Origin: Nitrosomonas marina
GTDB taxonomy: Bacteria > Pseudomonadota > Gammaproteobacteria > Burkholderiales > Nitrosomonadaceae
Length of the DNA: 64,000 bases
Assembly: GCF_900110145.1 (NCBI RefSeq)
Contig: NZ_FOCP01000004.1
Coordinates: 1 to 64,000 of the forward strand
Direction: 5' to 3'
Below the pieces are notes generated by a model. It was not told where the DNA came from. It did no database searches and saw only the letters and a program-made list of their open reading frames with translations. The translations under genes were made by a program, and so were the position numbers. Shown piece by piece: positions 15,309 through 40,209 of the stretch; the stretch's first letter is position 1; each line of letters begins with the position of its first letter.

Positions 15309-17945
15309 TTATGCAGCTACTCTACGTATCGGTCTGGAGGGTTTCCTGGCGGCTGATTGCTGCCTTCTATATACAATAATACTGAGCAAAACGCCAAGCA
15401 ATATCACCGTGATCAGCGGAATGTTGCCTTCTGCAATCGTTTCGAGATTGGGGTCGAACAGCAACAGCAATAACGCAATAGCCAAAGTCGGAATAATCGT
15501 CACAAACAGGCTGATAATAAAAATCTTTTTGTGCTTTCCGTGAAAACGGCACGAATTCAAATAACTGATCAGCAAAATCAACGACAACACGCCCAACACA
15601 ATCAGGGCAACCCAGAAAAAGCTCCGATTTTCGCAGACAAACCGGTCAAGTGCGGTGTCCGGCTGACCGTTGCGGTCGGGGTGTTGAAAATGTCTGACCA
15701 GGCAACTGCTGATGCCCTTTATCTCCTCGCACCGTCCGGACATTTCCGTTTTCAGCACCGGTTCATTCAGCGGTAACGGCCAGAAACCCACGCCGCCAAA
15801 ATTGTCCTTGAAATAAACAATATCATCTTCCAGCTGTTCCCAGTTTCGGCCGTCAAATTCGATAACCGGAATGATATTGCGCAAAAACAGGCCGCGTAAA
15901 ATACCATACAACCCGCTATTTTCAATATCTAGCCTCAGTCCTTTCTTGGCCTTTGTCGTCGGTTCTTCAAGTAGCACCAGAATTTTGGCATTAAGATCGT
16001 CGCGGATATCAACCTGCTGATACGAGCTGGCAGCATCATTAGCTTGAATACCCGAAATACGTTCAAGCAGATTAAAATACTGATAAAACCCATCTCCCAG
16101 CTCGGACTGCGACACCATAATGTTGACAAAATAATTATCACCCGTTGCCTGTAGCCGTTTTGTCAACGTATCATAAAAACTGTTAAACAGGTCGATCGAC
16201 ACTGCATCGTTCGGGAATCCTCTGAAATCGAGCGTGACGCCATCGCCTTGCGTTGCCAGGTGAACTGCGCCAAATGTCAGTCTGGCATATAGATCATTCA
16301 ACGGTTGCGTGAGTAATTGATAAATGTCATCAGCAAGTGTGGCAAAGATATTCGCCTTCTGGTTTGAATCGAGTGACTGCCATTCTTTTGCCCAGTATGA
16401 CTGATCTTTGTATATAACCCAGTCCACTTTACTGTTGTGTCGGCGGGCCGTCTGGATAAATGAATTTTTATCAAGAAACTGTTTCAGGTCGAATGTATTA
16501 TTATCATCATTGACATGGTTAATCGCCCCGCCGGCATCAAAAGACAATCCATGATAAGCCACCCGTGACAAAACACTGAAATTGACTATTTGCCGGGTAT
16601 CACTTGCCAGCCAGTAAGGATAAAGACCGTAAACCGTACCAGACAGTTCATCCAGCACACATCCACAGCCATCGCCGTCCCAATCCAGTATAGCGGAAGC
16701 ATCAAAAACCGGTCTTTTTTTATATAGCAACGCAACTGCCGGACGCACAACATGCTCATAAAGACTGCTGATAAATGCATCGACATCGCGCTTCTCTGTT
16801 TCGTTGCATGTTCCGGATCGCTCACGTAACGCATTTATTAATTTCAGATGTTTGCGAATCTCGGGCATTCCATGGTACATCTGATTGTTGAGCAGATCGG
16901 TTTCCAGCGCCAAAAACGCTTCATCGCTGATTTTGATGCCCAGCGTGTACTGGTTATGCAAGAGTGCTTCCTGACAAACTCCAATGCCCGCAAAAATTTT
17001 AGCCTGCGCCGCTTTGTCAAAAAGTTCCGGACGTGGATAAACTGTACCGGCAAATTCATTTTCAAGCAATTCAGCAAGAACAGGATTCAGGGAAGCCATG
17101 AAAGGATCGCCGATCATTGCCTGGTCAAGAAATTTTATAAAATCCTGTGTAATCACCGGCGTTCTGTTACGGTAGTAACGTTTTACCAATGGGGACAATC
17201 GCTGAAACAGATCCGGATAGGCTGCCAGGACGTTAGAGACAGCCGTTTCGAGTAATGCGTAATTCTCGTACTGTTTGTTTTCCAGCTTAAGCAGCGCAGC
17301 CATTATCTGTTCCTTGCTCTGCAACAGCACGAAATCATCGGCTGTTAACTGATAATAGTACATGGGCGATGCAGAGTAATCGGGATTGACCCCGATAGAA
17401 AATGGCTCACTTAATGATCGATAGCGATACACAAGGTCCAGCAATGCCTGGTGAGAGCCCTGTCGCCTGATGTAATAATCCAGATCTCTTTGATAACCGG
17501 GCAGCCTGTCGTTCCAGTCGGCGAATTCAGCACTCAGAAGAATCGCCGTTTCTTGTGGAAACAAGTTGGCAAATTCAGCAATGCTTTCAATCCGGACAAT
17601 CAGTTCATCGGCGTAATCACCGATCGGTTCGATTTTAAAATCGTGGGTAAACCGTTGCAGCCAGAACAAAGTCACCGGACCCAGGAGACCGTCTGTCAGC
17701 GGCTGGTTACTTAACTGGACATCTCTTTTCCAGTTCAGGTCCTGTTGATAAATAACAGCGAGGTTCTGTTGAATGCTATAAATGGCGGAATGCTCGAGCT
17801 GGTTGAATCTGGATCGATCCAGCAGCCGGTCGAAGTGCTGATCGCGATCCAGCACATAGGGTACATCATAAGCATAAAGCGTGACGCTGCTGCCGGTTAT
17901 CAACAGTAACCAGAGGAGCAAGATTCTGAAGAATTGCAATCTCAT
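15309..17945 (-). CDS. Secreted membrane-anchored protein with degenerate GH18-like domain, last eCIS gene
   Basis: 878 aa. A signal peptide (about 1-26) is followed by a segment like a peptidoglycan-binding domain (DGLLGPVTLFWLQRF, about residues 86-100), a long helical region, a Cys-containing stretch (DWDGDGCGCVLDEL), then a TIM-barrel-like GH18 pattern. Strand 1 is VYGLYPYWLAS, strand 2 VLSRVAYHGLSFD, strand 4 GDGVTLDFRGF. In GH18 enzymes strand 4 reads DGxDxDxE; here the second Asp is Thr and the catalytic Glu is Arg, so chitinase activity is unlikely. Three hydrophobic segments and a basic tail close the protein (about 765-860). Its start overlaps the stop of the AAA ATPase gene by 4 bases (ATGA), tying it to the injection-system operon. 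The role is unknown: anchoring the particle at the envelope, glycan binding or release are options. I recognise no named family over the full length. Confidence 0.7.
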   Translation of the reverse strand: MRLQFFRILLLWLLLITGSSVTLYAYDVPYVLDRDQHFDRLLDRSRFNQLEHSAIYSIQQNLAVIYQQDLNWKRDVQLSNQPLTDGLLGPVTLFWLQRFTHDFKIEPIGDYADELIVRIESIAEFANLFPQETAILLSAEFADWNDRLPGYQRDLDYYIRRQGSHQALLDLVYRYRSLSEPFSIGVNPDYSASPMYYYQLTADDFVLLQSKEQIMAALLKLENKQYENYALLETAVSNVLAAYPDLFQRLSPLVKRYYRNRTPVITQDFIKFLDQAMIGDPFMASLNPVLAELLENEFAGTVYPRPELFDKAAQAKIFAGIGVCQEALLHNQYTLGIKISDEAFLALETDLLNNQMYHGMPEIRKHLKLINALRERSGTCNETEKRDVDAFISSLYEHVVRPAVALLYKKRPVFDASAILDWDGDGCGCVLDELSGTVYGLYPYWLASDTRQIVNFSVLSRVAYHGLSFDAGGAINHVNDDNNTFDLKQFLDKNSFIQTARRHNSKVDWVIYKDQSYWAKEWQSLDSNQKANIFATLADDIYQLLTQPLNDLYARLTFGAVHLATQGDGVTLDFRGFPNDAVSIDLFNSFYDTLTKRLQATGDNYFVNIMVSQSELGDGFYQYFNLLERISGIQANDAASSYQQVDIRDDLNAKILVLLEEPTTKAKKGLRLDIENSGLYGILRGLFLRNIIPVIEFDGRNWEQLEDDIVYFKDNFGGVGFWPLPLNEPVLKTEMSGRCEEIKGISSCLVRHFQHPDRNGQPDTALDRFVCENRSFFWVALIVLGVLSLILLISYLNSCRFHGKHKKIFIISLFVTIIPTLAIALLLLLFDPNLETIAEGNIPLITVILLGVLLSIIVYRRQQSAARKPSRPIRRVAA

Positions 17946-19303
17946 TGCGTCCTTCCTTCTTTTAACAGTTCTTTTCTGACGCCGTTTACCAGATCATCAT
18001 GGAAAATTGTTTCCCGGTTCATTCGTACCGCCTGAATTGCGGCGTACCGTACCGCATTGGTGATACCTCCCCCGGAAAGTACGTATTTATCCGCCAGTTC
18101 ATTTAAATTAACATTTTCCAATAAGCGGCTGTTCCCTGTAAACATACCCTGCCACAATCGCAGGCGCTGTTCTGCATCAGGCAACGCAAAATGAACAGAA
18201 GTCTGGAAACGGCGCGCAAAGGCTTCGTCCATATTCGTTTTTTGATTGGTTGCCAGAATCACAATGCCCGGATAATCTTCTATACGCTGTAACAGATAAG
18301 CGATTTCCTGATTGGCATAACGGTCGTTCGCGCTACTGGTTTGCGTCCGCTTTCCAAACAGCGCATCTGCCTCATCAAAAAACAGAATCCAGCGCTTGTT
18401 ACCTGCCTGGTCAAATACATTCGCCAGATTTTTCTCTGTCTCACCGATATATTTGGAGACGACCATTGACAGATCGATCCGGTACACATCGATATCCGCC
18501 GCTTTACCGATAAGTGTTGCAGTCAACGTTTTCCCGGTTCCCGGCGGACCGTAAAACAATACGCGATAACCTGGTCTGATATTTTTCCCAAGGTCCCACT
18601 GCTGCAATATCTTTGCTGAATGCTGCAGCCAGGCGTTAATATTTTCGATTTCATCCATCACTTCTGCACTTAAAACCAGATCCTGCCAGGTCAATGAGGT
18701 GGTAATCAATTTCGCCGGAAAATGCATTGTATAATCGGGCTTCTGATTTTTTCCGGTTGTCATGCGCCCAAGGTATTCTGCCGTGATTGTTAGCGATGCA
18801 CTTAAAAAAGGCTCCCCATTCGCCACCTGGGCAACTTTGATAATTCCATTTTTTGACAAACTGTGATCGGCCTGAAACAGTTGCAAGACATCAAACCGTC
18901 TTGACAGATCCTCACCAGCCAGTAAAAAAACTGCGGTTTCACACGTTGGGAGAAAACCACTGTGAAACTTGCCACGCCATCCTCCAAATTCTGTAAAACC
19001 GCGCGCAAGATCCTGATTATTCATCATAAAAAAATCCAGCGCCTGCGGCTGCAGATGCGGCAGCAATGCCAGAATCACAATCAGTCGTTCCTCGAAGCCC
19101 ATACCGGTTTCCCGGATAATTTGCGCAAACTCGGACTGATCTGACAACAAGTCAGGGGCGCTGATCGCGTATATTTCATCGATGTCGGTTTCACGACCGA
19201 AATAAAGATCGAAGCGTGCTTTAACTATGGCCTTGAACCATTTGACCTCCCTTTCTAACGATTCAGCGTTTAATTTATTCGACATTGACAAAGACGCTTC
19301 CAT
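17942..19303 (-). CDS. eCIS AAA+ ATPase (Afp15-like)
   Basis: About 453 aa. A N-terminal helical region precedes one AAA+ module: Walker A GPPGTGKT (about residues 253-260), Walker B ILFFDEAD (about 306-313), sensor-1-like IVILATNQ and an arginine finger region (DEAFARRFQ). Homologues are a constant part of eCIS gene clusters (Afp15/Pvc15) and are thought to help assembly or cargo loading. The frame is open further upstream but overlaps the tape-measure gene; ATG 19303 lies 2 bases after that gene's stop, and ATG 19285 with GGAAG in front is an alternative. It overlaps the next gene by 4 bases. Confidence 0.92.
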   Translation of the reverse strand: MEASLSMSNKLNAESLEREVKWFKAIVKARFDLYFGRETDIDEIYAISAPDLLSDQSEFAQIIRETGMGFEERLIVILALLPHLQPQALDFFMMNNQDLARGFTEFGGWRGKFHSGFLPTCETAVFLLAGEDLSRRFDVLQLFQADHSLSKNGIIKVAQVANGEPFLSASLTITAEYLGRMTTGKNQKPDYTMHFPAKLITTSLTWQDLVLSAEVMDEIENINAWLQHSAKILQQWDLGKNIRPGYRVLFYGPPGTGKTLTATLIGKAADIDVYRIDLSMVVSKYIGETEKNLANVFDQAGNKRWILFFDEADALFGKRTQTSSANDRYANQEIAYLLQRIEDYPGIVILATNQKTNMDEAFARRFQTSVHFALPDAEQRLRLWQGMFTGNSRLLENVNLNELADKYVLSGGGITNAVRYAAIQAVRMNRETIFHDDLVNGVRKELLKEGRTQ

Positions 19304-19305
19304 GC

Positions 19306-22300
19306 TTATCGCCAGGCAACCTGAATCGCCCGTGTCATCCATTTGTACTTAATAACCGAAAAACTCCATGGTAATTGATCAAGCAGCATATCAAAAGGCC
19401 CGGGCTCAATCGTCAGGGACCACATATCCTCCTGCAGCAGCAACCGCCCTCTTCGCTGCAGAAAAGTTTCGCGTAGACCGCTCATCGAAGTTTTTCCCAG
19501 TACCTTCCAGTTCTGGATGATACCGTTCAGCAGACTTTCTGCTGTTTCCCGTTCCTGTGTGTTCAACTGAATGTTACGGCTGACAGGCATGACCACAGGA
19601 AGACCACATAAAATCTTGTTCAGAATCAGTTGATATTCAGGAAACTGCGATGCCTCATTGACTATGAACTGCAACAGATGTACGGCGCGTTCTATTGCAG
19701 GCGCATTAATTAGCCCATCATTGTCAAGCCATCCCAGTCTTCCAAAAAGATGCGGCAGATACGGTGCCGCCAGCACAAGTCCGGCATTCTGAATAAAGTA
19801 TTCATCGCCGCACTCATCTTTTAATTTACCGCTATTCGAATCGAACACAGCAGGTCGCTTGAATTGAACATCCTGAGCGAGGTTTGGTGATAAAAGGGGG
19901 GAATTTTCGGGTTTCTTGACTTGATTACCCGAAACGCTGCCGTACTGAATCAAAACACCCTGTAATAAATGCTGCAGTACGCTAGTGTGCTGTATTTTCC
20001 TTACTGTATCTTTCTGCTCATATCCCTGCTGTTCGATTAACAGCGCCTGATTCCATATTCGTGCCAGTCCTAGCGCATCTCCGTCGCCAGCCAGATCCTG
20101 TAACAAGGCATATACAAACTCAAAAGTGACCGTCGTTTCTTCAACCGTTTCATCAGATTTACCGGCATGCGAAATTTCAGATAACGCCTTCAGCCCGCTA
20201 TCCCATATTTGCTGCCTCCATACATCAGGCCCTGGCTGTTTAATATTTTTCGTATATTGTCGGAAAAATTCCGCATGCGATAACCAGTCAGCCAGAATGA
20301 AGACTGATTGCGGCGAGACGGTATATGCGACATCGATCAGGATAGATTCAGGTAGCTTTTCAATTAGTTTTTGACGCGACACTGCATTGTGCACCAATGC
20401 CAGTAGCTGTTCGCGCAGTGCCAGTGTTGCATCGCTTTTACTTAAACCTATGAATTGCCCGGCATACTGTTCCGTTCCAGCGATGCCCGCCTGTTGAAGT
20501 GCCGAACGAATCCGTTTATTGATTGGTTCGATGACATGTTCTTTCGCAGTTGTAGCTACCGTCTCGACAGATATGACACTATTTGTGGTTTCGGACTGTG
20601 TGACAACGGCTTCCAGATCGACCGTATCGTCAAATAACAGTTTTTGAAGTATGAGCTGAAAATATACAGCGCTGTTTCCAGATTCTGGCAAATGCGACTC
20701 GATTGCTTTAATGAACAGTCGGCGGTCTTCATCCTTCAACTCAGAACTGCATTCCAGCAATTCCTGTACCAACGCTCTGGCCCTGGTCTCCGTCAATGCG
20801 GCAATCACGAGCCGACCGTCTTCCAGGGCCAACCTCAAGTCTCGCTTCAAAGTATGGGGATCAGTCGTCTGCAATTGCTGAATCAGATCAATCTGTTCAT
20901 CTGTCGGGAAGTTACACTGTTCTGGCGATCGAAGCGAAAATATCGCATCCTGCACAAAGTTATAAAACACATTTGTTGCATACGCATACCGCTCATCCTG
21001 CAGTTTATTTAACGTCTCACTCCAGGAACACAATATCGTTACTGCATCTTGGCCTTCCGACTGACCTAGCGCCAGCGCCCGAAAAAAAAGATTCGTCTTA
21101 AAATTTCTATGTAACGACGTGTCTGCCAAATAACGTAACGCGTGATTCCATAGCTGATTCAACCACGCTGCGTCCGGCCTGTATTGCACATTTTCATCAT
21201 ACAGCAGTAGCGTATCAGCGTGACGAATCAGTTGCGCAAGGATGAAAGCAGCCTGGGGTGACAATACATAGCTTATGTCCAGAAGCGTAGATTCGGGTAA
21301 ACGGGCAATCAGCTTTTGCCGCTCATCCTGTTCGAGCAATAAATCGACTAGCTGCTGTCTGGCGAATGCGATCTGGTTTGCCTCAAACCGATTTAAATCC
21401 AGCCTGTTAATTCCGGCTTGTCGCAGCGTTATCAGCAGACGGCTCAACAGGATCTCTTCACACGGCTTTTGTATAAATAATTCATTTTCAGTAAACAGTT
21501 TTGGAATCTCGGGCTGAATTTCCGGTTCTTTCTCTGCAGCTGAAGAAACCAGAGCTTCCAGATCGATATCTTCGTCATACACAAGCTTTTTCAGCACCTG
21601 AAAATAATAACCGGCACTATTATCGATATGTCGCGCATGGCTGTCGATAGCTTCGGCGAGTGCAATACGGTCTGCACGGTCAGATCCCGGATACAGATTC
21701 AGTATTCCGTGTATCATAGATTTAAGATCGACTTCAGGTACTGTTCCCGTATGCAAACGGCCGTACTCAAACAATGTCCTAAGTCGCCGCAGTTGTTGCG
21801 TATAATCATCTTTAAGAAGCACCGCTATCTGGCGTATTTCCGCAATTACCTTGATTGCCGGCCGCTCAGTCGATGCGGCGAACAGAATATCAATCAGGCT
21901 GTTATCAGGGTCCATTTCTACAATACATTCACCTTGCTGTTCGCGTTGACGGCGCAATCCGTATTGCCAGAACGTCAATATCGCTGCGCCGTTACTATCT
22001 TGCGACATTCCCTGTGTCATTGCCAGGCAGAAGTCTACAGCATCAAAATCGCTGTCCGGGAAATCAAAGTTCTGTGTACGCTGTATAAAATCCAGAACAT
22101 TGTCGAACAATCGTTGTCTCCAGGCTGAAATATCAGCATCCCGAGGATTAACGGTCGATTGGTAAAGCGTATTCGCATATGTCAGTGTCTGTGCCAGGAT
22201 TTGTGCGGCGTACGGCGATATTCTGTAAACCATATCAATCAGAGCGGGCTCAGGCAGCTCAGCAACTATTCGGGCACGGGCCAACTGATCGGAAAGCAGT

Positions 22301-24246
22301 GTCAGCAACCATTCCCGGTTTGCCAGCACATCCGCGAAACGGAATTGCGCAACAGACGGTTCTTTTTCGACGATTGCTGCGGACTTCAGGGCTGAAACAA
22401 TTCCACTGGTAACGGGATCACTTGCATCGCCTGCCCAATTAGAATCTACGGAGCCCAGGTCTGCTGATGTTGACACATGATTGTAAGCGCTCGTTGAAAT
22501 TTGAGCCTGTCTCGACTGCTGTTTACCGTGCAAATGATGTACCGCCTGGCCGTCTGGCAAGAAATGTTTCTCAAATGCCGAATACGCCATGGCATCAGCA
22601 ACGATAATCTGCAGAATACGTAAAGAATATCTGTCTTCGCTGGAATGGGTCAGTTCCAGCGCTTGATACCAGGTTTGCAGGATTGTTGTATTGTCTGGCT
22701 CGTCGTACAAACACTGCGTCAGTGCGCGCGCAATACCGGCTGCAGCCAGCGTATCTGTTGAAGTGCCTGCCAAAGACACCGTGGTCACAAAACGCAGTAC
22801 ACTCTTCCAAAAGCAGTTTATCCAGTCGTCAAACGAAACAGAGATACTGTGCCTTTGATTCTGGGCATATCGATAAAACCGTTCGGCTTTGAGAACAAAC
22901 TGCCCGACGATAAATGCAATTTGCGGAGACTGCGCAAATAAGATATCCATCAAAACTGTCTGAGGCAGTCTGGCTATTATCTGATCACGAGCCCTGGTAT
23001 CCTGCAAAATGGTTCGCAATCGTTGTTGCAGGCCCGATATATCCAGCGGTTGTTCATTTGCCGAATCACTAAACGGTGCACTTATGCCGGCATGCTGCAT
23101 CGCTGTGAAAATACGGCGATATAACCACCTAGACAGTGACAGGCTTCCGGCGACTGATGTATCTTTTTCGTTGCCGGATCCGTATATTTCATCCTGACCA
23201 TTGCCTGTATGTGTTGCTTTGATCTGTTCGGATTCAGTCAAATGTTCAATTGTCGCACGTTGTATTGCAGACGGACAGTCCTCCTGGAAACCGTGATCTG
23301 CAGCTTGCGACAGAATCACCGACAGCTGTTCAGAATCGTCATGAACACGTGCGGTCTCGATCAGTCTGTCTAGCAGGAGGCCTGCTTCTTCATGTAACAT
23401 TGGTACAACGATCATTTTCAGATATTGCCGAATCAACCGCGAGAAACGCGTTGATCCAGGCAGAGGCGACTGACTTGTAACATCATCAATGATCCACGCC
23501 CACAGTGCCGTCATTACTTTGTTGTATCGCTCAGCGGGCAATGCTGATTTAGACAGCATCGTTTGGATTGATTCAATCAGACCGAGCTGCAACCTGTGAT
23601 GTTGCGGGTCCATTTGATACAACACAGACCTGAGCACTGCCGGAGAAAACTGCTGAACCATTCGCCATACAAACAATGTGCGATCTTGCTGTGGCATTTG
23701 CATCAGCATCTCTCGCAACGCGCTTGTTGACACAGCTTCCTTCAGCACGCGTTCCATGAGTTTTTCATGCCAATGTACATCGTTCGTATCGATATACCAG
23801 GGAAGACTTCCGGTCAGCATAAATTGTTTCAATTCCTCAAAGCCAGACTGGATCAAACTGACAGGGATTACATTATCTGTTTTACCTGATACTGATGTGG
23901 TGGGTATGTGCAATAAAGGTAGCGTCACTAAGTGGTGATAACTGGATTCCCTGGCCTGTTTCAGCTGCAGACCGAATTGTTCCTGAAGTATTTGTACAAT
24001 CTGGTCTGGAAAATTGGCTTCGGAAATCGCCCCGAGGTCAAGAGTCACCTGATTAATTCGCAGCACCTTGTCTGCCTCATCATGCTCGTTCAACACGACT
24101 TCCATGGCCGGCAGTAATGTACGTACGATCCAGTCGCTCAATTGCGATTCATGTTCGGGCTCTACGGTATCGGCAGCAAACGAAAAATCGAAAATAACCT
24201 GTTCAATAACATGTACTGAAGCACTGTCATAACCAATAGTCGCCAT
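19306..24246 (-). CDS. eCIS tape measure protein (Afp14-like), very long, with four internal repeats
   Basis: 1646 aa. The N-terminal domain (HVIEQVIFDFSFA, LRINQVTLDLGAISEANFP) and the C-terminal domain (AIERAVHLLQFIVNE, PEYQLILNKILCGLP, ESLLNGIIQNWKVLG, WSLTIEPGPFDMLLDQLPW) are those of contractile injection system tape measure proteins. Between them one block recurs four times, centred near residues 425, 669, 992 and 1305: LPQTVLMDILFAQSPQIAF, LPEPALIDMVYRISPYAAQ, LPESTLLDISYVLSPQAAF, LPESILIDVAYTVSPQSVF, each followed by a helical stretch. In the family this protein sets particle length, so the repeats could have changed it. It overlaps the upstream gene by 20 bases. The low-complexity acidic linkers (for example EKEPEIQPEIPK) separate the units. 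Confidence 0.9.
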   Translation of the reverse strand: MATIGYDSASVHVIEQVIFDFSFAADTVEPEHESQLSDWIVRTLLPAMEVVLNEHDEADKVLRINQVTLDLGAISEANFPDQIVQILQEQFGLQLKQARESSYHHLVTLPLLHIPTTSVSGKTDNVIPVSLIQSGFEELKQFMLTGSLPWYIDTNDVHWHEKLMERVLKEAVSTSALREMLMQMPQQDRTLFVWRMVQQFSPAVLRSVLYQMDPQHHRLQLGLIESIQTMLSKSALPAERYNKVMTALWAWIIDDVTSQSPLPGSTRFSRLIRQYLKMIVVPMLHEEAGLLLDRLIETARVHDDSEQLSVILSQAADHGFQEDCPSAIQRATIEHLTESEQIKATHTGNGQDEIYGSGNEKDTSVAGSLSLSRWLYRRIFTAMQHAGISAPFSDSANEQPLDISGLQQRLRTILQDTRARDQIIARLPQTVLMDILFAQSPQIAFIVGQFVLKAERFYRYAQNQRHSISVSFDDWINCFWKSVLRFVTTVSLAGTSTDTLAAAGIARALTQCLYDEPDNTTILQTWYQALELTHSSEDRYSLRILQIIVADAMAYSAFEKHFLPDGQAVHHLHGKQQSRQAQISTSAYNHVSTSADLGSVDSNWAGDASDPVTSGIVSALKSAAIVEKEPSVAQFRFADVLANREWLLTLLSDQLARARIVAELPEPALIDMVYRISPYAAQILAQTLTYANTLYQSTVNPRDADISAWRQRLFDNVLDFIQRTQNFDFPDSDFDAVDFCLAMTQGMSQDSNGAAILTFWQYGLRRQREQQGECIVEMDPDNSLIDILFAASTERPAIKVIAEIRQIAVLLKDDYTQQLRRLRTLFEYGRLHTGTVPEVDLKSMIHGILNLYPGSDRADRIALAEAIDSHARHIDNSAGYYFQVLKKLVYDEDIDLEALVSSAAEKEPEIQPEIPKLFTENELFIQKPCEEILLSRLLITLRQAGINRLDLNRFEANQIAFARQQLVDLLLEQDERQKLIARLPESTLLDISYVLSPQAAFILAQLIRHADTLLLYDENVQYRPDAAWLNQLWNHALRYLADTSLHRNFKTNLFFRALALGQSEGQDAVTILCSWSETLNKLQDERYAYATNVFYNFVQDAIFSLRSPEQCNFPTDEQIDLIQQLQTTDPHTLKRDLRLALEDGRLVIAALTETRARALVQELLECSSELKDEDRRLFIKAIESHLPESGNSAVYFQLILQKLLFDDTVDLEAVVTQSETTNSVISVETVATTAKEHVIEPINKRIRSALQQAGIAGTEQYAGQFIGLSKSDATLALREQLLALVHNAVSRQKLIEKLPESILIDVAYTVSPQSVFILADWLSHAEFFRQYTKNIKQPGPDVWRQQIWDSGLKALSEISHAGKSDETVEETTVTFEFVYALLQDLAGDGDALGLARIWNQALLIEQQGYEQKDTVRKIQHTSVLQHLLQGVLIQYGSVSGNQVKKPENSPLLSPNLAQDVQFKRPAVFDSNSGKLKDECGDEYFIQNAGLVLAAPYLPHLFGRLGWLDNDGLINAPAIERAVHLLQFIVNEASQFPEYQLILNKILCGLPVVMPVSRNIQLNTQERETAESLLNGIIQNWKVLGKTSMSGLRETFLQRRGRLLLQEDMWSLTIEPGPFDMLLDQLPWSFSVIKYKWMTRAIQVAWR

Positions 24247-27364: not shown

Positions 27365-27698
27365 AGCTATGTGAAACAGAGCCCGCTTTGTCGTTGTGTG
27401 TCCGATGCTGGTGTTCCATTTCCGTATTCAGTTTGTCCAGCAGTTGGTGAACGTGTTCGTAAGGCAGCTTTCCAAGCGCTTTGATTGTCAAGAGCAACTC
27501 CTGCTCGGTGAACATAAACGGTTTTTGCGCTGTTTTATCCGTAGCCTCAGCGAATTGATGATGCGCCTGCTGATTCAGCTTACCGATTAATTCGAATACC
27601 GTTTTGAACGGACATTCTGCCAATGCCGTCAGTATCAGATTACCCTCTTCCATAGTAATTTTTACCGACACAATCCGGTCTGACATCCTGCTCTTCAT
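27351..27698 (-). CDS. Small eCIS-cluster protein with two internal repeats, unknown function
   Basis: 115 aa, not recognised. Two halves resemble each other: EEGNLILTALAECPFKTVFE followed by LIGKLNQQ (about residues 17-44) and EQELLLTIKALGKLPYEHVH followed by QLLDKLNTE (about 65-93). Each would be a helix-turn-helix unit of about 28 residues. No signal peptide or membrane segment is visible; the tail is polar. Another start at codon 5 (MSDR) is possible. It begins 1 base after the fibre-like gene's stop and overlaps the J-like gene by 14 bases, so it is a true member of the operon. A baseplate adaptor or a fibre/cargo chaperone is a guess only. Confidence 0.75.
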   Translation of the reverse strand: MKSRMSDRIVSVKITMEEGNLILTALAECPFKTVFELIGKLNQQAHHQFAEATDKTAQKPFMFTEQELLLTIKALGKLPYEHVHQLLDKLNTEMEHQHRTHNDKAGSVSHSYADR

Positions 27699-32392: not shown

Positions 32393-32532
32393 TGATACAA
32401 TGAACCATGTGTCTTCAGATTGATAAAACCGGGCCAGGACAGGCCGCTAAGCACAAGATACAGCCTGTCGGCATATTGGTCGATTGCCATTTGGTCAATA
32501 ATGCCTGTAGCCTTGTACCTAGATACGTACAT
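32389..32532 (-). CDS. Possible small ORF (47 aa) between gp25-like and J-like genes
   Basis: The minus strand has an open frame from ATG 32532 to a TGA that overlaps the next gene's ATG (ATGA). It starts MYVSRYKATGIIDQMAIDQ and ends FINLKTHGSLYQ. Its start overlaps the end of the gp25 gene by 14 bases. The exact stop-start coupling and the fill of an otherwise empty 126-base gap support it; the lack of any known family and of a clear ribosome-binding site speaks against it. An internal ATG at 32490 would give 33 aa. Confidence 0.35.
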   Translation of the reverse strand: MYVSRYKATGIIDQMAIDQYADRLYLVLSGLSWPGFINLKTHGSLYQ

Positions 32533-32941
32533 TGGTACCTTCGGTAAAATAGAACGGATACACGATATTGTGCCGGTTATTGGTGGATCGAACGATATAG
32601 GTTATATAAATCTGAATCAGACCATTCGCGCGATCGTTCTCATTTTCACTATCCACGTCTATATGCTCAACAATGACGCGTGGTTCAAAAAATAAAATCG
32701 CTCTTCTGACAAGGTCGGTTATCACGGTAATTTCCGTCTCGTCGATTTCCTCAAACACATGTGCTTTTAACCCGCAACCGTAAGTGGGCTGCATGATGCG
32801 TTCGCCTGGATGCGTTGATAATAAAATATACAGGCTTTCACGAATGTCCTCTTCTGCAGACACCCGTTTGACGCTACCATTGATATTGAACTGCGGAGGA
32901 AAAGCCCATCCTGTACCTAGAAAGGATTTGTCTGTCGCCAT
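32519..32941 (-). CDS. eCIS baseplate gp25/GPW-like protein (Afp9-like)
   Basis: 140 aa from ATG 32941; the longer open frame to 33220 covers the PAAR gene in another frame and is not used. The sequence has the gp25 pattern: FLGTGWAFPPQF at the start, EEDIRESLYILLSTHPGER, then MQPTYGCGLKAHVFEEID and a final beta hairpin. In contractile systems gp25 joins the baseplate wedge to the first sheath ring; the Glu-Ile-Arg (here DIRES) region corresponds to its conserved EIR-type motif. It follows the PAAR gene by 77 bases. Confidence 0.92.
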   Translation of the reverse strand: MATDKSFLGTGWAFPPQFNINGSVKRVSAEEDIRESLYILLSTHPGERIMQPTYGCGLKAHVFEEIDETEITVITDLVRRAILFFEPRVIVEHIDVDSENENDRANGLIQIYITYIVRSTNNRHNIVYPFYFTEGTNVRI

Positions 32942-33018
32942 GTTTGTTCTCGCTACATTACGTTGTTCAGGCACTAACAAACCTGAACAATGGTGTTGTA
33001 TCGCGTTAAGCCGGCAAG

Positions 33019-33342: not shown

Positions 33343-35133
33343 TCAGTTAATCATCACCATGGCCCCCTTAACCGTTGTTTGACCACTTGCCGACAATTCT
33401 GCCGTTGCATTGCCTTTAGCAACAAGACCGACATTGGCCTGATGGTTAATGTTAAGCCCTGTGTTGTTAATATCTGCCTGTGCAGTCACTTCGACATTGT
33501 TGACGGCATCAATAGTTACCTTGCCTTTCGCACTGATTTTTATGTCTTTGGGACTGTCGAGAGTGATACCGCCGGTATTCAACTCCACTTTGTTACTGTT
33601 CTGGTCCTGTAGCAGTATTGATTTCTGCTCATCACTGATCACTATCTGGTTATTATTCGGTGTAATCAGCGTAATTATTTTCTTTTCTTCATCAAATTCG
33701 ATTTTTAGCTTGCTGCGTGTAACAACTGCCTTAATATTGTTTTCCGCCGTTACCTCATAGGGCGGTTTTCGATTGCTGCTATACATACTGCCTAAAATAA
33801 CCGGATACGCCGGGTCATTGTTCAGATAACCAAGTATGACTTCATCGCCAATCTCAGGTATGAAGAAAGCGCCAAAACCTGTGGAGCTGTAGTAACCGGC
33901 CAATCGTGCCCACACACCTTCATTCTCAGCCTGCATTACGGGTATCGATACCTGTATTCTGTATTGACCTTCCGGGTCGGTATCCAGCTTTTTCACAACA
34001 CCTACCTGCAAACCACGAACACCCGGCACAAGCCCTGCGGCCAATGGCGCCTCGACAGAATATTGCTCGGTGAACCATTTTTCAGAAAGACCAAACTGTA
34101 TTTCGCTGACCCAGTTTCCACTGACAATCCTGTGCCTGACCTGTGTCACAAGCACATTACCATTAAACCGGTCATTTATGCCCTTGATTTCGATCAGTGT
34201 GCCAATTTTTGCTTTGGCACTGCCCTGAAATGAGGCGCTACCCTGAATTCTGGCAAGCCCGGATTTGATCTGCTGACCATTGGCCCAATCTGAAAGCGCA
34301 GTATTGTCAAGCGGTGTATCGGTCTGTAAACGGAAATACTCCGGTCCGACAATTTTGGCCAGTTCTGCGCTGTCGATATTTCCCTGGCTGTTCAGGCTGA
34401 CCGGGCCGGACTGTGCTTCCGTAACTGCCTGCGTAGCAGGATCCCATGCGGTTGCCTTAACCGTACCGTATTGCGCAAAAGCATCGAGGTCGGCATCAAA
34501 TGCCATCAAATCGATTCCATAAGTCAGTGTCAATTGGGCTTCCCCTGTCACCTGTGGCGCTTTGACACTGATGGTGCCAGCATCGACTGCCACCAGACAG
34601 CCGTTTACTTCCGCCCGCGTCAGTAAAAAATCCCAGTCAGTACAGTAAAACTGCACTACCTCCTTGAACTGTGTGCTGGTTGCAGAAACATCTGCCGACA
34701 CATCTTGATGACCATTAATCATCTGTGTCATGATATCGCTATCTTTGGCATTGACATAGTTAGCATTCTTTCGACCAACTGTCATCGCTACGGCCTGATC
34801 CTTACAGTATACGATCAGTCGAGAATAGTTATTGCCATCGATCTTGATACTGTGCCTGATGACAATACCTTTGAAGATCCTGGTCTCCTTGTTGTCATAA
34901 CCACAGGCCAGCTCAACGACAGCACCTGGTTTGAATACGTCCTGGCTACTGACCGGAAATTCATTATTCGGCATGTCTCCATCGAGAATAACAATTCTGG
35001 CCGATGGGATTTTATTAACGCAATACTCAATTTCTACCGAAACAATCTGGATTGTATCTGCAACCGCTTTCCCGTTGCTGGTCAGCGAGAGAGAAACTAT
35101 ACCCGTACTATCTTTCAATGGAGAGTCGGCCAT
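33343..35133 (-). CDS. VgrG-like central spike protein (Afp8-like)
   Basis: 596 aa. The N-terminal two thirds are gp27-like (IEYCVNKIPSARIVILDGDM, FKGIVIRHSIKI, FYCTDWDFLLTRAEVNGCLV). Then comes an OB-fold (GVVKKLDTDPEGQYRIQVSI, FFIPEIGDEVILGYLNNDPA, PVILGSMYSS) and a gp5-type beta-helix with regular repeats (NKVELNTGGITLDSPKDI, AKGKVTIDAVNNVEV) ending GAMVMIN. It forms the trimeric hub and spike. No lysozyme domain as in phage T4 gp5 and no effector domain at the C-terminus. It starts 8 bases after the LysM gene's stop. Confidence 0.93.
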   Translation of the reverse strand: MADSPLKDSTGIVSLSLTSNGKAVADTIQIVSVEIEYCVNKIPSARIVILDGDMPNNEFPVSSQDVFKPGAVVELACGYDNKETRIFKGIVIRHSIKIDGNNYSRLIVYCKDQAVAMTVGRKNANYVNAKDSDIMTQMINGHQDVSADVSATSTQFKEVVQFYCTDWDFLLTRAEVNGCLVAVDAGTISVKAPQVTGEAQLTLTYGIDLMAFDADLDAFAQYGTVKATAWDPATQAVTEAQSGPVSLNSQGNIDSAELAKIVGPEYFRLQTDTPLDNTALSDWANGQQIKSGLARIQGSASFQGSAKAKIGTLIEIKGINDRFNGNVLVTQVRHRIVSGNWVSEIQFGLSEKWFTEQYSVEAPLAAGLVPGVRGLQVGVVKKLDTDPEGQYRIQVSIPVMQAENEGVWARLAGYYSSTGFGAFFIPEIGDEVILGYLNNDPAYPVILGSMYSSNRKPPYEVTAENNIKAVVTRSKLKIEFDEEKKIITLITPNNNQIVISDEQKSILLQDQNSNKVELNTGGITLDSPKDIKISAKGKVTIDAVNNVEVTAQADINNTGLNINHQANVGLVAKGNATAELSASGQTTVKGAMVMIN

Positions 35134-35141
35134 GGCGGATT

Positions 35142-35831
35142 TTAATTAAGTGGCGGAAACCGTAACAGCGTTCCCGGCTTTAGGTCTCGAAAATGAGTCA
35201 GATTATTGACACGCGCGACTTCCGGGTAATAAGCACTGTTCTGATAAATCCGATAACAGAGCAGTGGCAGCGTATCACCTGCCTTGACTTCTACCTGGTG
35301 CGTCAGATCCGGTGACTGATTATCAGCTTCCTTGGCAATTTCTTCACTGCTTTGGTACTCGATAAACGTCAATGTCACCTTGGCGCGCAGCGGAACGCCA
35401 TTGGGTTTGAAAAGCGTATAATCAAACTTCAAAGATTCTACCCGACCATAAAACAGAAAACTGCCCCATTTCAACTGAACAATCGGCGCTTCGTGTTTGC
35501 TGCCGTCATAGGTATAGATCACATTACGTAACAGCTCTATCTGGTTTTTAACCGAAACAGGCTGATTATCCGATGACCTGATAACACCGGTACCGTCAAG
35601 TATCAATTCCCTTAGAACAATTTTTTCCGGATGACTGACATCATATTTCGTTTCAGTTCCTGGCTGGCCCAGTACTTTGTTCTTTGCGTATCTCAGACTT
35701 AAAACATGTTCATAGCCGGACGGATTAATCATTGCTTCAAACTTTTTTTTGGAGCTGTCAACACTGATCCTGCCGTCTGAACTGACTGTACAACGCGATA
35801 TCGTCAACAGCGCTTTTTTCTGATTCGCCAT
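35142..35831 (-). CDS. LysM-domain baseplate/tube-hub protein (Afp7-like)
   Basis: 229 aa. The first 160 residues are a beta-rich domain (FEAMINPSGYEHVLSLRYAK, YDVSHPEKIVLRELILDGTG, RVESLKFDYTLFKPNGVPLR). A LysM domain follows at about 178-228 (HQVEVKAGDTLPLLCYRIYQ, VARVNNLTHFRDLKPGTLL). In related systems this protein links the inner tube to the spike. The ATG follows directly after the TAA of the 54-aa gene upstream. Confidence 0.92.
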   Translation of the reverse strand: MANQKKALLTISRCTVSSDGRISVDSSKKKFEAMINPSGYEHVLSLRYAKNKVLGQPGTETKYDVSHPEKIVLRELILDGTGVIRSSDNQPVSVKNQIELLRNVIYTYDGSKHEAPIVQLKWGSFLFYGRVESLKFDYTLFKPNGVPLRAKVTLTFIEYQSSEEIAKEADNQSPDLTHQVEVKAGDTLPLLCYRIYQNSAYYPEVARVNNLTHFRDLKPGTLLRFPPLN

Positions 35832-35996
35832 TTAGCGCTCCTCTCTTTCGCGCATGATATCCTGAATCAAATGACGGCATTCAACCATCAATTCTTCCTT
35901 TAATGCATTGCGTTCCTCGTCAAAATCCTGCGATGTGTCTACAGTACGTTGCACGATATTCGATTTAATAAGTAATTGTTTGATTTCTATTGGCAT
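35832..35996 (-). CDS. 54-aa DUF5908-like eCIS protein (Afp6-like position)
   Basis: A short minus-strand gene, ATG at 35996 and TAA at 35832-35834, directly abutting the LysM gene. It starts MPIEIKQLLIKSNIV, which matches the N-terminal pattern (MPIEI-x-L-x-IK) of the small DUF5908 proteins found in eCIS clusters, and ends in a charged helix (VECRHLIQDIMREREER). Function unknown; the N-terminal strand plus helix could be a structural linker. Placement between tube and LysM genes is the conserved place of Afp6-type small proteins. Confidence 0.75.
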   Translation of the reverse strand: MPIEIKQLLIKSNIVQRTVDTSQDFDEERNALKEELMVECRHLIQDIMREREER

Positions 35997-36010
35997 CTTT
36001 ATGGCTCACA

Positions 36011-36478
36011 TCAGACAATTCGTTTTAAAAAATTATAGTTCAATACTATCTTTTCGATAGCCACCTCGTTTTTGGTCGAACCAAAGTTTTCAATTTCCCA
36101 TTTCACGGGAAAAGCTGAATCAAAAAGCCAGCCGCGTATCGGTGTCTTGTCCTCGTTCATTAAAAATACACGGATAACCTGCGTTTCAATTGCCGACACG
36201 AAATCACCCTCCAAAACAGCGATACACCATTTCACCAGTGGTGAATCTTTTGGCGCAATGCCACGCTTTAATTCCAGATTGGGATGTTTGATTCCTTTCG
36301 GCAATTTATAGGCAAAGCGGTTTTCACCACCTTCTACTACTGTTTCCAAATCAATTTCCGTAGTTATACCGGACACTTCCTGAAAAGAAGTATCTGCGTT
36401 CTCATGCGTGCCACCGAACATAACCTTGAAATAAAACGCAGAAGGCGGATAAATTGTATTCGAAGATGCATCCTGCAT
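36011..36478 (-). CDS. eCIS inner tube protein 2 (Afp5-like, tube initiator type)
   Basis: 155 aa with the T4 gp19-like tube fold: AFYFKVMFGG, TSFQEVSGITTEIDLETVVE, KHPNLELKRGIAPKDSPLVK, then FPVKWEIENFGSTKNEVAIE and IVLNYNFLKRI. It is related to the tube protein at 36534 but clearly divergent. In AFP-type particles the second tube protein forms the first layers on the baseplate. No signal peptide. The gap to the first tube gene is 55 bases. Confidence 0.9.
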   Translation of the reverse strand: MQDASSNTIYPPSAFYFKVMFGGTHENADTSFQEVSGITTEIDLETVVEGGENRFAYKLPKGIKHPNLELKRGIAPKDSPLVKWCIAVLEGDFVSAIETQVIRVFLMNEDKTPIRGWLFDSAFPVKWEIENFGSTKNEVAIEKIVLNYNFLKRIV

Positions 36479-37063: not shown

Positions 37064-38566
37064 TCATGATTTCTGCATTTGCTGCTGGAACGTAATCTCA
37101 ATAAACTCAGCCGGGCGGCTCAAAGCAACCAGCACTGTAACACGCAGCATACCATCGAGAATATCCTGCGGCGTCATGGTTTCTCCAAGACCAACATAAA
37201 CACCGAATGCGTCATCGGGTGTTGCGCCGGCCAATCCACCGCGTTTCCAGATACTGATTAAAAAATTGTTAATCATGCTCTTGATCGTTACCCAGGTATT
37301 GGAAACATTTGGTTCGAATACATAAGCCTTGGTGGCCAGTTTGATCGATTCTTCCAGCATGATCATGGTCCTGCGCACGTTGATATACCGCCAATCCAGG
37401 CTATTGCCATCCAGTGTCCGCGCTCCCCAAACCAGTGTTCCTTCACCGATAAACGAGCGTATGGCATTGATCGATTTACCAGCCGTGGTAACGTTCAAAT
37501 CTTCCTGTTCGTCATGAGTAATCTCCACCGATGGTGAAACCACGCTGTTTATACTGACATTCGCCGGTGCCTTCCAGACGCCGCGGGAATTGTCTACCAT
37601 TGAATAAATACCCGCCATGGCAGCAGCAGGAGGCAGCAAATTCAAACGGCTTCTGACGGCCTGCAGGATTGTTCCGTAAATCGGACTAACAACATTCAGG
37701 GTCTTGTGTAATTCTGGATCGTCTGCAGTTGATATTTTTTTGATTTCCGCCTTGATTTCGGTTTTTTTTGCGTCGATCAACTGACTGTTGTCGACTTCAG
37801 CATCCAGGAGTTCTTTTAGCGCATCCGGATTGGCAATATTAGTAAAACTTAATTCGCCAGGCTGGACAATTGATGTATTCAACCAGGGATAGTAAGCCGC
37901 GGCAAAATCCAGAAAACTGGTCCCGAGCTTATTACGAAAATTATCGATGCAGTTGCCGTCAGGATCCTGTTGGTCCCTGTAACCATTATAGACATCGAGT
38001 ATTCCGAATCGATTCTTCATCGCGTAACCGCAGTGTTTAAGAACCGCCTGCTGCAATGCTATACAATCATCTTCCTTGTCGATTGACATGGCGTCTGGAA
38101 TGACCACCATGGTAGGTTCCTGCTCTTTTAGCAGTACCTTGACACCGCCCTCAAGCTTGGCCTTATCGATGGCACCTTCCCCATACTTGCCAACTGAAAT
38201 GATATAGCATGCCCCACCGCCATTCTGAAAGAAAAGTATCATGCTGTAGTACAGCAAAAACCTTTGTTTCTGATGCACCAGGTAATATTCCTTTTCATTA
38301 CTGGAAAAATCCGCCTCTGCCGATGTTTCATCCTCGGGTTTTTCTTCCTGAATTTCAAACTGCGATTTGGGTGCACCGCCGAAATAACTGATGAACTCCG
38401 ACATTGAAGAAATACGCCATGCTTTGTTTAACAACGATTTTCCCTGGTTGTCAGCACGCTCCGTATACCCGATAAATGCAGGCACCGCAGTCGCAACTTC
38501 CACTACGGAATTAGGAAACGCATTCTTTTCAACAATGTAAACACCTGGTGTCTTGTACTGCCCCAT
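37064..38566 (-). CDS. eCIS contractile sheath protein (Afp2-like)
   Basis: 500 aa. The start GQYKTPGVYIVEKNAFPNSV and AVPAFIGYTERA, the LFFQNGGGACYIISVG strand, the DFAAAYYPWL region and the C-terminal block WGARTLDGNSLDWRYINVRR with TMIMLEESIKLA are all typical of contractile tail sheaths. It is the only sheath gene of the cluster, whereas AFP and PVC have three, so one protein probably builds the whole sheath. An acidic insert (EEKPEDETSAEAD, about residues 73-86) lies near the N-terminus. GAGGAG just upstream of the ATG is a strong ribosome-binding site. Confidence 0.95.
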   Translation of the reverse strand: MGQYKTPGVYIVEKNAFPNSVVEVATAVPAFIGYTERADNQGKSLLNKAWRISSMSEFISYFGGAPKSQFEIQEEKPEDETSAEADFSSNEKEYYLVHQKQRFLLYYSMILFFQNGGGACYIISVGKYGEGAIDKAKLEGGVKVLLKEQEPTMVVIPDAMSIDKEDDCIALQQAVLKHCGYAMKNRFGILDVYNGYRDQQDPDGNCIDNFRNKLGTSFLDFAAAYYPWLNTSIVQPGELSFTNIANPDALKELLDAEVDNSQLIDAKKTEIKAEIKKISTADDPELHKTLNVVSPIYGTILQAVRSRLNLLPPAAAMAGIYSMVDNSRGVWKAPANVSINSVVSPSVEITHDEQEDLNVTTAGKSINAIRSFIGEGTLVWGARTLDGNSLDWRYINVRRTMIMLEESIKLATKAYVFEPNVSNTWVTIKSMINNFLISIWKRGGLAGATPDDAFGVYVGLGETMTPQDILDGMLRVTVLVALSRPAEFIEITFQQQMQKS

Positions 38567-38679: not shown

Positions 38680-39540
38680 TTAATGTACGTAAATTTCTGA
38701 AATATGATGCATTTTTCCGTTCACCGTGTCGCCATGCAAATGATTGACTGAAGCGTTCGGCAATCTATTAATCAGTATCTTGTCCCCTCGATTCTGCGAC
38801 TCTCTGAGTTGCAATCGCTGTTGCGGCAGTTCGTGCATCTGTATTGCTCGTGTTGATTGAAGCATTCTGGCCGGGTGATTGCCGGGCAATATGATTTTTC
38901 CGATTTCTTCAAACATTAACTTACTGTCCAGATCCCGAATATACAGACTGCGTCGGGACAAGTCCCCCATCAGATAATATTTCCAGAGTGTCTTGCTGCT
39001 TGTAAACGAAATAACAAAATTACGCACGGCCTCGGAGCCCTGACCCGGTGTTAGTAATAAACTTTCGGTGAGCATGGTGAACTGAACGATGAAGCAGGGG
39101 GGCACATGATAGTCTCGCGATTCAAGGCATTGTCTTATCCGGTCCGAACCTGAATCTTGATAATCACGCTCGGACACAAAGCGTTCACGATGTAACAGTT
39201 GTTTTCCATCCGTTTTTATAGCGGACTGCTGATTGTCAAAAAACAATAACGCGTTCGAGGATGGCCTGGCGGGTGCTGTATACCAAAAAAAACTTGGATC
39301 TCTCGAAAATACCTTGAAGGTAAATGACAATTCGTCTTCAGCGTACAAATGCAGGCGATCGATTTTGTCTGTTTCAAAAAAAACAGAAAGACGATTGGCA
39401 ACTGTTTTTAACAGAAACCCGGGGCGGTTGAGAAGGTGGACCGTTTTCACCGTTGGAACAAAATTAAGTGACTTGCAGACATGATCGGTGAAATACATAT
39501 GCTCTACAGAAACATTAAAAAGCAACTGGTAGGCATTCAT
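38680..39540 (-). CDS. Unknown 286-aa eCIS-cluster protein
   Basis: Not recognised as a named family. It starts MNAYQLLFNVSVEHMYFTDH, a beta strand pattern that I associate with an otherwise undescribed protein next to the sheath in several eCIS clusters. The rest is mixed, with an acidic-aromatic segment (FSRDPSFFWYTAPARPSSN, about residues 77-96) and a beta-rich second half (NFVISFTSSKTLWKYYLMGD). The last 60 residues are polar. There is no signal peptide or membrane helix. It sits between cap and sheath genes, 84 bases after the former and 113 before the latter. A cap, adaptor or cargo role is open. Confidence 0.7.
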   Translation of the reverse strand: MNAYQLLFNVSVEHMYFTDHVCKSLNFVPTVKTVHLLNRPGFLLKTVANRLSVFFETDKIDRLHLYAEDELSFTFKVFSRDPSFFWYTAPARPSSNALLFFDNQQSAIKTDGKQLLHRERFVSERDYQDSGSDRIRQCLESRDYHVPPCFIVQFTMLTESLLLTPGQGSEAVRNFVISFTSSKTLWKYYLMGDLSRRSLYIRDLDSKLMFEEIGKIILPGNHPARMLQSTRAIQMHELPQQRLQLRESQNRGDKILINRLPNASVNHLHGDTVNGKMHHISEIYVH

Positions 39541-39624: not shown

Positions 39625-40209
39625 TCAATTATTACCCATAGGCGGGACCGAAGATTCCGGAACAGTCACAACTGGCTGGCGGCCGATGATGTCTTCCGAA
39701 TCGAATGTAACCATGCGCACGCGGTACAATATCGAAGGCATATATTTCCCGCCTAAAGTGCTCCATAAATTGCTCTGATCCTGTACTGACAAATTTTCTA
39801 TATCCAAGACCAGTTTCTCGATTCGTTTGTCCATCTCTGGCACCGTATGATGGCTAAACATCGGGTTTCGCTGAAAAAAACTGATCGTACTGGATAAAAA
39901 CTTTAAGGCCTCGGCGTAATTGTTGCCGGTGAAGTTTGCAGTCATCATGACATACAGATTGAAATGCAGTGCGGTGTTGCGTTGCAGGGCCCTTTCGCCA
40001 AAGCCCTGGTTTCCCCCCAGTGAGGCCGACACAGCATCTTTTTCAATATTAGTTAAAAAGATTACAAGTTTGTTATGTATATTTGGCGCAACGCTGCCAT
40101 CCATTTCTAACAGATTGGAAACAATCGCCACATCTTCATTAACTGCATAGGTTCGTTTCAAATGCTGATTGAGTTGTCCCGCCAGCAGCTGTATTGCCAG
40201 GTTAATCAT
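39625..40209 (-). CDS. DUF4255 (Pvc16-type) tail terminator/cap protein (Afp16-like)
   Basis: 194 aa with the DUF4255 pattern: helical start INLAIQLLAGQLNQHLKR, strand IHNKLVIFLTNIEKD, LHFNLYVMMTANFTGNNYAE, ALKFLSSTISFFQRNPMFS and IEKLVLDIENLSVQDQSNLW. The family caps the distal end of sheath and tube and stops growth. A clear ribosome-binding site (AAGGAA, 6 bases before ATG 40209) marks the start. This is the first gene of the injection-system cluster and lies only 34 bases behind dacB, on the same strand. Confidence 0.93.
   Translation of the reverse strand: MINLAIQLLAGQLNQHLKRTYAVNEDVAIVSNLLEMDGSVAPNIHNKLVIFLTNIEKDAVSASLGGNQGFGERALQRNTALHFNLYVMMTANFTGNNYAEALKFLSSTISFFQRNPMFSHHTVPEMDKRIEKLVLDIENLSVQDQSNLWSTLGGKYMPSILYRVRMVTFDSEDIIGRQPVVTVPESSVPPMGNN

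Follow-up and report, generated by a model that had tools for sequence, protein, structure and literature searches.

A clade Ib contractile injection system operon in Nitrosomonas marina whose last gene encodes a putative membrane docking protein

The operon and its clade

We analysed a stretch of 64,000 nucleotides from Nitrosomonas marina (positions 1 to 64,000 of contig NZ_FOCP01000004.1, assembly GCF_900110145.1; this whole stretch is called the window) that carries, on the minus strand at 15309-40209, the operon of a contractile injection system (CIS). Our chief concern is the last gene of the operon, whose product of 878 amino acids (aa) is a putative docking protein. Families were assigned by Pfam profile searches of the window proteins and structural likeness by sequence matches to the PDB, and these matches bear out the claim of a sequence-only reading of this DNA that the operon is complete with its named components. 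The count differs: the sequence-only reading gave eighteen genes, and we find 17, one of which encodes a DUF5908 protein of only 54 aa. From the cap to the last gene they are:

39625..40209, minus strand, cap (Pvc16_N / DUF4255; Cis16A): PF14065 1.7e-36; PDB 9r9n_B 4.9e-32; AlgoCIS cap 4.2e-16
38680..39540, minus strand, 286-aa probable cap adaptor (Cis16B-like): PDB 9r9n_C "SalCis16b - cap" 4.6e-5 over residues 3-88, a modest match
37064..38566, minus strand, single contractile sheath: PF17482 1.3e-9, PF04984 1.2e-7; PDB 9r9h 711 bits
36534..36992, minus strand, inner tube 1 (gp19-type): PF06841 1.4e-47
36011..36478, minus strand, inner tube 2 or tube initiator (gp19-type): PF06841 1.2e-35
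35832..35996, minus strand, 54-aa DUF5908 protein, Cis6-type plug by position: PF19265 7.1e-12
35142..35831, minus strand, CIS_tube hub (Cis7 type): PF19266 2.8e-40
33343..35133, minus strand, VgrG-like spike (Cis8): Phage_base_V PF04717 2.8e-20; PDB 9rce_F 604 bits
33019..33318, minus strand, PAAR tip (Cis10): PF05488 3.4e-23
32519..32941, minus strand, gp25 sheath initiator (Cis9), start moved: PF04965 3.2e-26
28490..32392, minus strand, J-like baseplate protein 1 (Cis11 type): Baseplate_J PF04865 5.4e-4; PDB 9rce_A 1.1e-111
27700..28518, minus strand, 272-aa Cis13-type fibre or adaptor: PDB 7b5h_AE (All3316) 7.5e-5 over residues 4-55
27351..27698, minus strand, 115-aa protein with no family above cut-off: equivalent place in four same-genus genomes
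24227..27364, minus strand, baseplate protein 2 (Cis12 type): PDB 7aeb_A 3e-62, SalCis12 9.5e-58, tCIS 6.7e-52
19306..24246, minus strand, tape measure protein: CIS_TMP PF19268 4.9e-99
17942..19342, minus strand, AAA+ ATPase (Cis15): PF00004 5.4e-29; also placed in an ATPase tree
15309..17945, minus strand, 878-aa putative docking protein (last gene): PDB 9r9a_B, E 2.7e-97 with profile A4

The sheath is indeed single, as had been stated. It scores 711 bits against the sheath of SalCIS (9r9h), 388 against that of AlgoCIS from Algoriphagus, 330 against that of the Anabaena tCIS and less than 200 against those of PVC and AFP; the spike behaves in the same way (SalCIS 604 bits, tCIS 534, AlgoCIS 435, PVC 151), and the sequence-only reading was thus right that the system differs from AFP and PVC. 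The Cis11-type protein matches SalCIS 9rce_A with an E value of 1.1e-111, AlgoCIS with 5.4e-86, tCIS with 1.7e-72 and Afp11 with 2.4e-9, and the Cis12-type protein is nearest to Alg12 of AlgoCIS, slightly above SalCis12, followed by SalCIS and tCIS. By these scores the operon is a clade Ib CIS of the superfamily that joins extracellular CIS (eCIS) and the T6SSiv type VI secretion system (T6SS), in the sense of PMC8894135, sheath and spike being placed by score and not by a sheath tree.

A remnant prophage tail or tailocin was weighed at this point, and its probability is negligible. Tube, sheath, gp25 and J families are common to phages, but the operon also holds an AAA+ ATPase, CIS_TMP, a Pvc16 cap and CIS_tube, its sheath scores below 30 bits against pyocin or T4-type sheaths compared with 711 for SalCIS, and neither capsid, terminase nor integrase was found in the 20 flanking proteins scanned. 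Profile placement refutes the idea in practice. The earlier statement that capsid, terminase, lysis and T6SS membrane genes are missing also stands for what was searched: the 20 flanking proteins held none of these families and no integrase, the other flanking frames lying outside the scan; TssM (PF06761) was not found in the whole genome, an E. coli control being positive; TssJ and TssL were absent from the 20 flanking proteins, no genome-wide search being made for these two. Profile placement, the lack of TssM and the lack of phage families in the scan agree with the sequence-only reading that this is a CIS of the eCIS superfamily and not a prophage, a tailocin or a canonical T6SS. Its further step, "so this is an eCIS", does not follow, because clade Ib includes both eCIS and T6SS modes (PMC8894135), with free eCIS standing beside the membrane-anchored T6SSiv and tCIS (PMC8894135, PMC8894136). 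The gene set therefore settles which family this is but leaves the mode undecided, on which the last gene speaks for attachment to a membrane.

Several assignments in the operon call for comment. The cap adaptor candidate has no Pfam match, and its gene adjoins the cap gene in six further genomes (G026, G046, G044, G124, G377 and G302). DUF5908 genes occupy the equivalent position in two other loci (L240 and L241). For gp25 the ATG at 32941 is preferred within a long TTG frame (32519-33220), the same-genus alignment beginning there. The Baseplate_J match of the Cis11-type protein (19.8 bits) lies below the curated threshold of 21.1 and is backed by the PDB matches; baseplate protein 2 has no Pfam match and matches solved Cis12 proteins instead. 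The 272-aa protein has its N-terminal domain in common with Anabaena Cis13, gives a short match (6e-4) in an AFP-type Serratia cluster and has no transmembrane (TM) helix by hydropathy. The description of the tape measure protein as repeat-rich held to a small degree: a loose motif occurs four times in it and zero to three times in seven relatives. Gene order is kept in four same-genus genomes, G046 and G044 among them, over the stretch fetched, and in G026 all window genes tested form one block.

The same-genus clusters also show variation. In G046 and G044 about 9 kb of extra DNA lies between the 286-aa gene and the sheath gene (L027-L028 and L029-L030); by eye it holds a hybrid histidine kinase, a response regulator, a GGDEF/EAL protein and a cargo-like frame, all of which the window is without, and signal control of the CIS by these genes is possible. 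The tape measure frame has 1646 aa in the window and 1944 aa in G044, with the C-terminus aligning, so tube length may vary between species.

The last gene and its linkage to CIS genes

Searches of the last gene against Pfam, PHROGs and NCBIfam returned nothing above cut-off. Its 878-aa product is predicted to consist of a signal peptide, a large N-terminal part, a degenerate GH18 domain, three C-terminal TM helices near residues 770, 810 and 840, and a basic cytosolic tail with the motif KPSRP; it is the only operon product with several helices, and the earlier description of it as envelope-anchored holds as a prediction from the signal peptide and these helices. TM helices were called by a hydropathy window, which finds exactly three at the C-terminus in 25 of 28 family members. 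The positive-inside rule was used to orient them: helices 1 and 2 are joined by a basic loop and helices 2 and 3 by an acidic one, and the tail is again basic, so the large domain is predicted to be periplasmic and the tail cytoplasmic. In a 21-member alignment (A6) the only invariant columns are one glycine and a tail proline (both 21/21), and 17 members end in this proline; it was last in 18 of the 28 proteins of an earlier set, which amounts to 18 of the 21 outside Nitrosomonas, and in 10 of the 12 relatives accepted from the wider-profile search described below.

The GH18 origin of the protein is visible only through its Bacteroidota relatives. The catalytic motif of GH18 enzymes is DxxDxDxE; the window protein has GDGVTLDFRG near residue 568, with arginine in place of the catalytic glutamate, and, by eye, a repeat region resembling peptidoglycan-binding modules (LQ..L...DG..GP.T). 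PF00704, the GH18 profile, matches 12 of the 21 members of A6, and 9 of the 21 keep the glutamate. All nine are Bacteroidota; the residue is missing from every proteobacterial, Fibrobacter, Nitrospirota and Bacteroides/Paludibacteraceae sequence in the alignment. This pattern bears on a rival explanation, in which the system is an ordinary lysis-released eCIS and the GH18-derived protein a release factor that breaches the envelope by weakening the producer's own wall. We consider it unlikely. It would accord with the nine intact glutamates and the twelve GH18 matches, with the free clade Ib systems AlgoCIS and MAC (PMC8894135) and with the lack of any lysis family in the flanking proteins scanned, since some release route would then be needed. 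Against it, the window protein has lost the glutamate that only Bacteroidota members retain, and a wall hydrolase would have no need of three helices or of a cytosolic tail with a conserved end.

Linkage of the last gene to CIS genes was examined in 61 genomes of the genus (sheath at E <= 1e-100, last gene at E <= 1e-3). Each gene occurs in 20 of them; 19 genomes have both, two have one alone (the last gene in G057, the sheath in the 75% complete G004) and 40 have neither (Fisher 1.3e-13, not corrected for kinship). In all five genomes of the genus that were read (G006, G026, G029, G044 and G046), the last gene stands beside the ATPase gene. The build that had been called unusual is accordingly not unique, the more so as similar clusters occur in other phyla and a close relative has deposited structures.

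In a phylum sample of 398 genomes, five matched the last gene, namely the source genome, G006 and three outside the genus, in all three of which the match lies inside a CIS cluster. A second survey started from an ATPase profile scan of named genomes, of which the best 80 of at least 574 confirmed loci were taken; since the best-scoring loci were chosen, this sample is biased toward the window ATPase. Adjacency is based on script-called frames, and the genome searches left out MAC, AlgoCIS and PVC. A relative of the last gene stands directly after the ATPase in 17 of the 80 loci. Whole-genome search of 49 genomes, 47 of which had yielded no relative before, added 14 carriers, in which the gene adjoins the cap (7), follows the ATPase (4), follows the tape measure (1) or lies in a fetched stretch without a CIS gene (2). 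A wider profile made from A6 was then run on 33 negatives and 15 further genomes, and matched 20 of these 48; 12 were accepted, 11 of them with CIS genes in the fetched stretch. In total, relatives were found in 43 of the 80 CIS genomes, spread over five phylum-level groups (Pseudomonadota, Bacteroidota, Fibrobacterota, Nitrospirota and SAR324), and 40 of the 43 lie near CIS genes.

Acceptance in the last step turned on helices and neighbours. Among 20 stretches from 18 matched genomes, 11 encode three C-terminal helices, and 9 of these 11 also have CIS genes; of the 9 stretches that fail the helix criterion, two (L192 and L200) have CIS genes. These two were accepted for their place beside the cap and a partial helix pattern; without them the total would be 41, not 43. 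The eight rejected genomes have matches that look like plain GH18 enzymes without adjoining CIS genes. The matches in G489 and G516, examined on short loci, show neither a C-terminal helix nor a CIS gene, and L196 (1134 aa, three helices) was left out for want of a CIS gene.

Within Bacteroidota, loci of Bacteroides fragilis, Paludibacteraceae and Parabacteroides have, behind the ATPase, a gene whose product is laid out in a similar way, the Parabacteroides frame being without the N-terminal part, and the three Bacteroidales proteins align by profile to the last-gene family (probability 96.5, E 1e-9, 131 columns). The genomes of B. timonensis, B. oleiciplenus, Alistipes and Cryptobacteroides gave no accepted relative. 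A search of Cytophagales matched 105 of 341 genomes, many by short matches taken for plain GH18. Two Aureispira loci (L150 and L154) carry two different relatives side by side, adjoining the cap. In plasmid and phage collections tblastn with the window protein found no relative; a spike query matched 132 records of the plasmid collection. Relatives of the last gene are absent from two plasmid-borne clusters, one of AFP type in Serratia and one, incomplete, in Parabacteroides distasonis.

On an ATPase tree of 84 rows built by a quick method, presence of the last gene changes 13 times compared with 27.1 when shuffled (0 of 500 shuffles as low), and at least six of the changes fall on starred branches. 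The trait is clustered on the tree yet has been gained or lost several times. Presence was also compared with that of a Cis13-type adaptor in 66 loci (29/9/7/21, the 7 having the adaptor only and including L111, whose genome was unsearched; crude Fisher 5e-5). As a co-inherited pair, last gene and adaptor were rejected: the tree holds five independent pairs, with a median p of 0.5.

A putative docking role

We propose that the product of the last gene docks this clade Ib CIS to the inner membrane and the cell wall and so keeps the machine attached to the cell in the manner of T6SSiv, a reading to which we give a probability of roughly 0.6 and which we infer from linkage and topology. The signal peptide would direct the large N-terminal part into the periplasm, and the GH18-derived domain there, together with a PG_binding module in some members, would grip the cell wall; the three C-terminal helices would fix the protein in the inner membrane, leaving the short basic loop and the tail in the cytoplasm to receive the baseplate. 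Possible contacts of the conserved tail are the cage of the baseplate and the Cis13-type adaptor. So held, the machine would fire outward through its own cell envelope at whatever target it may have, much as T6SSiv would, without release by lysis. A strict eCIS, with free particles released by lysis, is spoken against by the predicted membrane protein, and the presence of relatives beside CIS genes in many bacteria suggests that these machines may work cell-attached rather than released. The more general proposal, that clade Ib CIS are made cell-attached in five phylum-level groups by a docking receptor, a GH18-derived protein that ends in a near-invariant proline and whose presence or absence would tell the mode from the genome, is tentative, and we hold it somewhat less probable than even.

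A membrane protein that acts on a CIS has precedents. In all CIS studied before, membrane binding precedes firing (PMC12237407); the tCIS has a TM helix in its own Cis13, and the Streptomyces CIS needs the membrane protein CisA for contraction and firing (PMC12237407), which is a functional precedent only. CisA also suggests another explanation, that of a cytoplasmic CIS that fires at its own membrane as in Streptomyces, with the last gene encoding a CisA-like trigger of self-killing or a stress response. The kinase, regulator and GGDEF/EAL genes seen by eye in the G044 and G046 clusters would suit such a trigger. We nevertheless regard it as quite improbable here, as CisA belongs to type IId systems (PMC12237407) and a periplasmic GH18-derived domain points outward.

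Several results weigh against docking as set out above. At the sensitivity of the profile, the last gene is without a relative in 36 of the 80 CIS genomes (the remaining one lay outside the search), so the core machine can do without it; none is present either in a plasmid cluster of Azospirillum whose core genes are similar. For three of the 43 relatives (in L145, L148 and L193) the stretch fetched holds no CIS gene. Sheath and last gene are far apart in two genomes of the genus, both closed: by about 57 kb in G006, and by more than 1 Mb in G028, where the last gene is also in two pieces. The association with the Cis13-type adaptor is not significant once corrected for kinship. As to the protein itself, Pfam PG_binding_1 is found in one of eight and one of 21 relatives in two sets and not in the window protein; the tail proline of Nitrosomonas members is followed by a short extension, and L195 and L200 have no terminal proline; and only some 10-15 loop residues and 20 tail residues would face the cytoplasm.

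The missing relatives and the distances in G006 and G028 could also be taken to mean that the last gene stands beside the CIS by chance. That is very improbable, given that 19 of the 21 same-genus carriers have both sheath and last gene and that the 40 relatives near CIS genes occupy three positions, after the ATPase, adjoining the cap and after the tape measure.

Why the mode matters is plain from clade Ib, in which closely related machines differ in that some are released and others are anchored to a membrane. The AlgoCIS paper called this co-existence "intriguing" and suggested spike-cage sites as the switch (PMC8894135). If a separate membrane gene that comes and goes decides the matter, the question becomes testable by gene content and one deletion, and many loci catalogued as "extracellular" CIS would be misnamed. 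A candidate function would also be added for an ammonia oxidiser living in mixed communities.

Genomic context and comparison with known systems

The source genome (3.50 Mb, 99.87% complete, 69 contigs, the window being part of one) contains amoA (PF02461), and the ATPase tree groups the window ATPase with those of Nitrosomonas sp. Nm51 (84% identity) and a Nitrosomonas metagenome-assembled genome. The proteins scanned on the left flank are those of FecR/TonB receptor genes, AcrB pieces and a PepSY protein; those on the right are a D-Ala-D-Ala carboxypeptidase, a small protein without family, a PAD_porph deiminase, a dehydroquinate synthase, AcrB, a multicopper oxidase, a sulfate permease and a histidine kinase, with sucD and sucC (by eye) between scanned flank genes. 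The carboxypeptidase gene dacB, directly upstream of the cap, was tried as a member of the system and rejected: it is there in G026 but has no match in the 2.8 kb upstream in G044, and the G046 stretch is too short to tell. A TonB receptor at 11352-13759 is split into two overlapping frames (plug and barrel) and is probably disrupted for that reason, as are the AcrB pieces at 7638-9529. At 58697-58853, tandem 45-base repeats in a frame adjoining the multicopper oxidase look like a histidine-rich metal-binding stretch. A promoter consensus gave 5 matches, with 6.4 expected.

Two additional CIS clusters lie elsewhere in the genome, on contigs C20 and C31. The first (L020, C20:228-246 kb) has sheath, Pvc16_N cap, ATPase, gp25, Baseplate_J and Tail_P2_I and differs in type from the window CIS. 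The other (L022, C31:23-36 kb) is CIS-like, with Pvc16_N, sheath, tube, CIS_tube, VgrG-like, gp25 and Baseplate_J proteins, and no ATPase match in the stretch fetched. The genome encodes six eCIS_core (DUF4157) proteins (L233-L238), five on C20 (near 58, 69, 203, 220 and 224 kb) and one on C42, none of them inside the window. The leader of those at C20:69 kb and on C42 resembles that of the cargo-like protein within the G046 operon.

Both the operon type and a homologue of the last gene are already on record, the latter as a deposited structure. The chain 9r9a_B (864 aa) is annotated as "Uncharacterized protein"; its deposition means that at least one group works on the last-gene family. Titles and abstract openings of the CIS literature matches listed describe no such component, preprints lying outside that list, which is hence no proof that it is unpublished. 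The structures 9r9h, 9r9i, 9r9n and 9rce make SalCIS the best PDB match for the window sheath, VgrG, first baseplate protein and cap, and 9r9a would be its counterpart of the last gene, the membership of 9r9a in SalCIS being read from the neighbouring PDB codes.

Among systems with a known mode, AlgoCIS resembles the window CIS in cap, long Cis11 and Cis12, sheath and spike; it is a clade Ib eCIS, free in the cytoplasm, with Alg19 fibres and local cargo (PMC8894135), and the word "transmembrane" does not occur in the main text of that paper. The likeness to the Anabaena tCIS lies in sheath, VgrG, baseplate homologues and the N-terminus of Cis13. The tCIS is anchored to thylakoids through a TM helix within Cis13 itself (PMC8894136), whereas the Cis13-type protein of the window has no such helix, and anchoring would fall to a separate protein. 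The T6SSiv of Amoebophilus and the Bacteroidales injection systems share their clade with the window CIS. Membrane attachment is reported for T6SSiv (PMC8894135), for which the fibre-type protein Aasi_0556 has been proposed as the Amoebophilus anchor (PMC12210884); in Bacteroidales, three loci (L099, L125 and L098) have a related three-helix protein after the ATPase. AFP and PVC, which are clade Ia eCIS, have the core CIS parts in common with the window and sheaths that score below 200 bits against its own, and the AFP-type Serratia plasmid cluster carries several sheath genes, in contrast to the single sheath gene of the N. marina operon with its putative docking protein.

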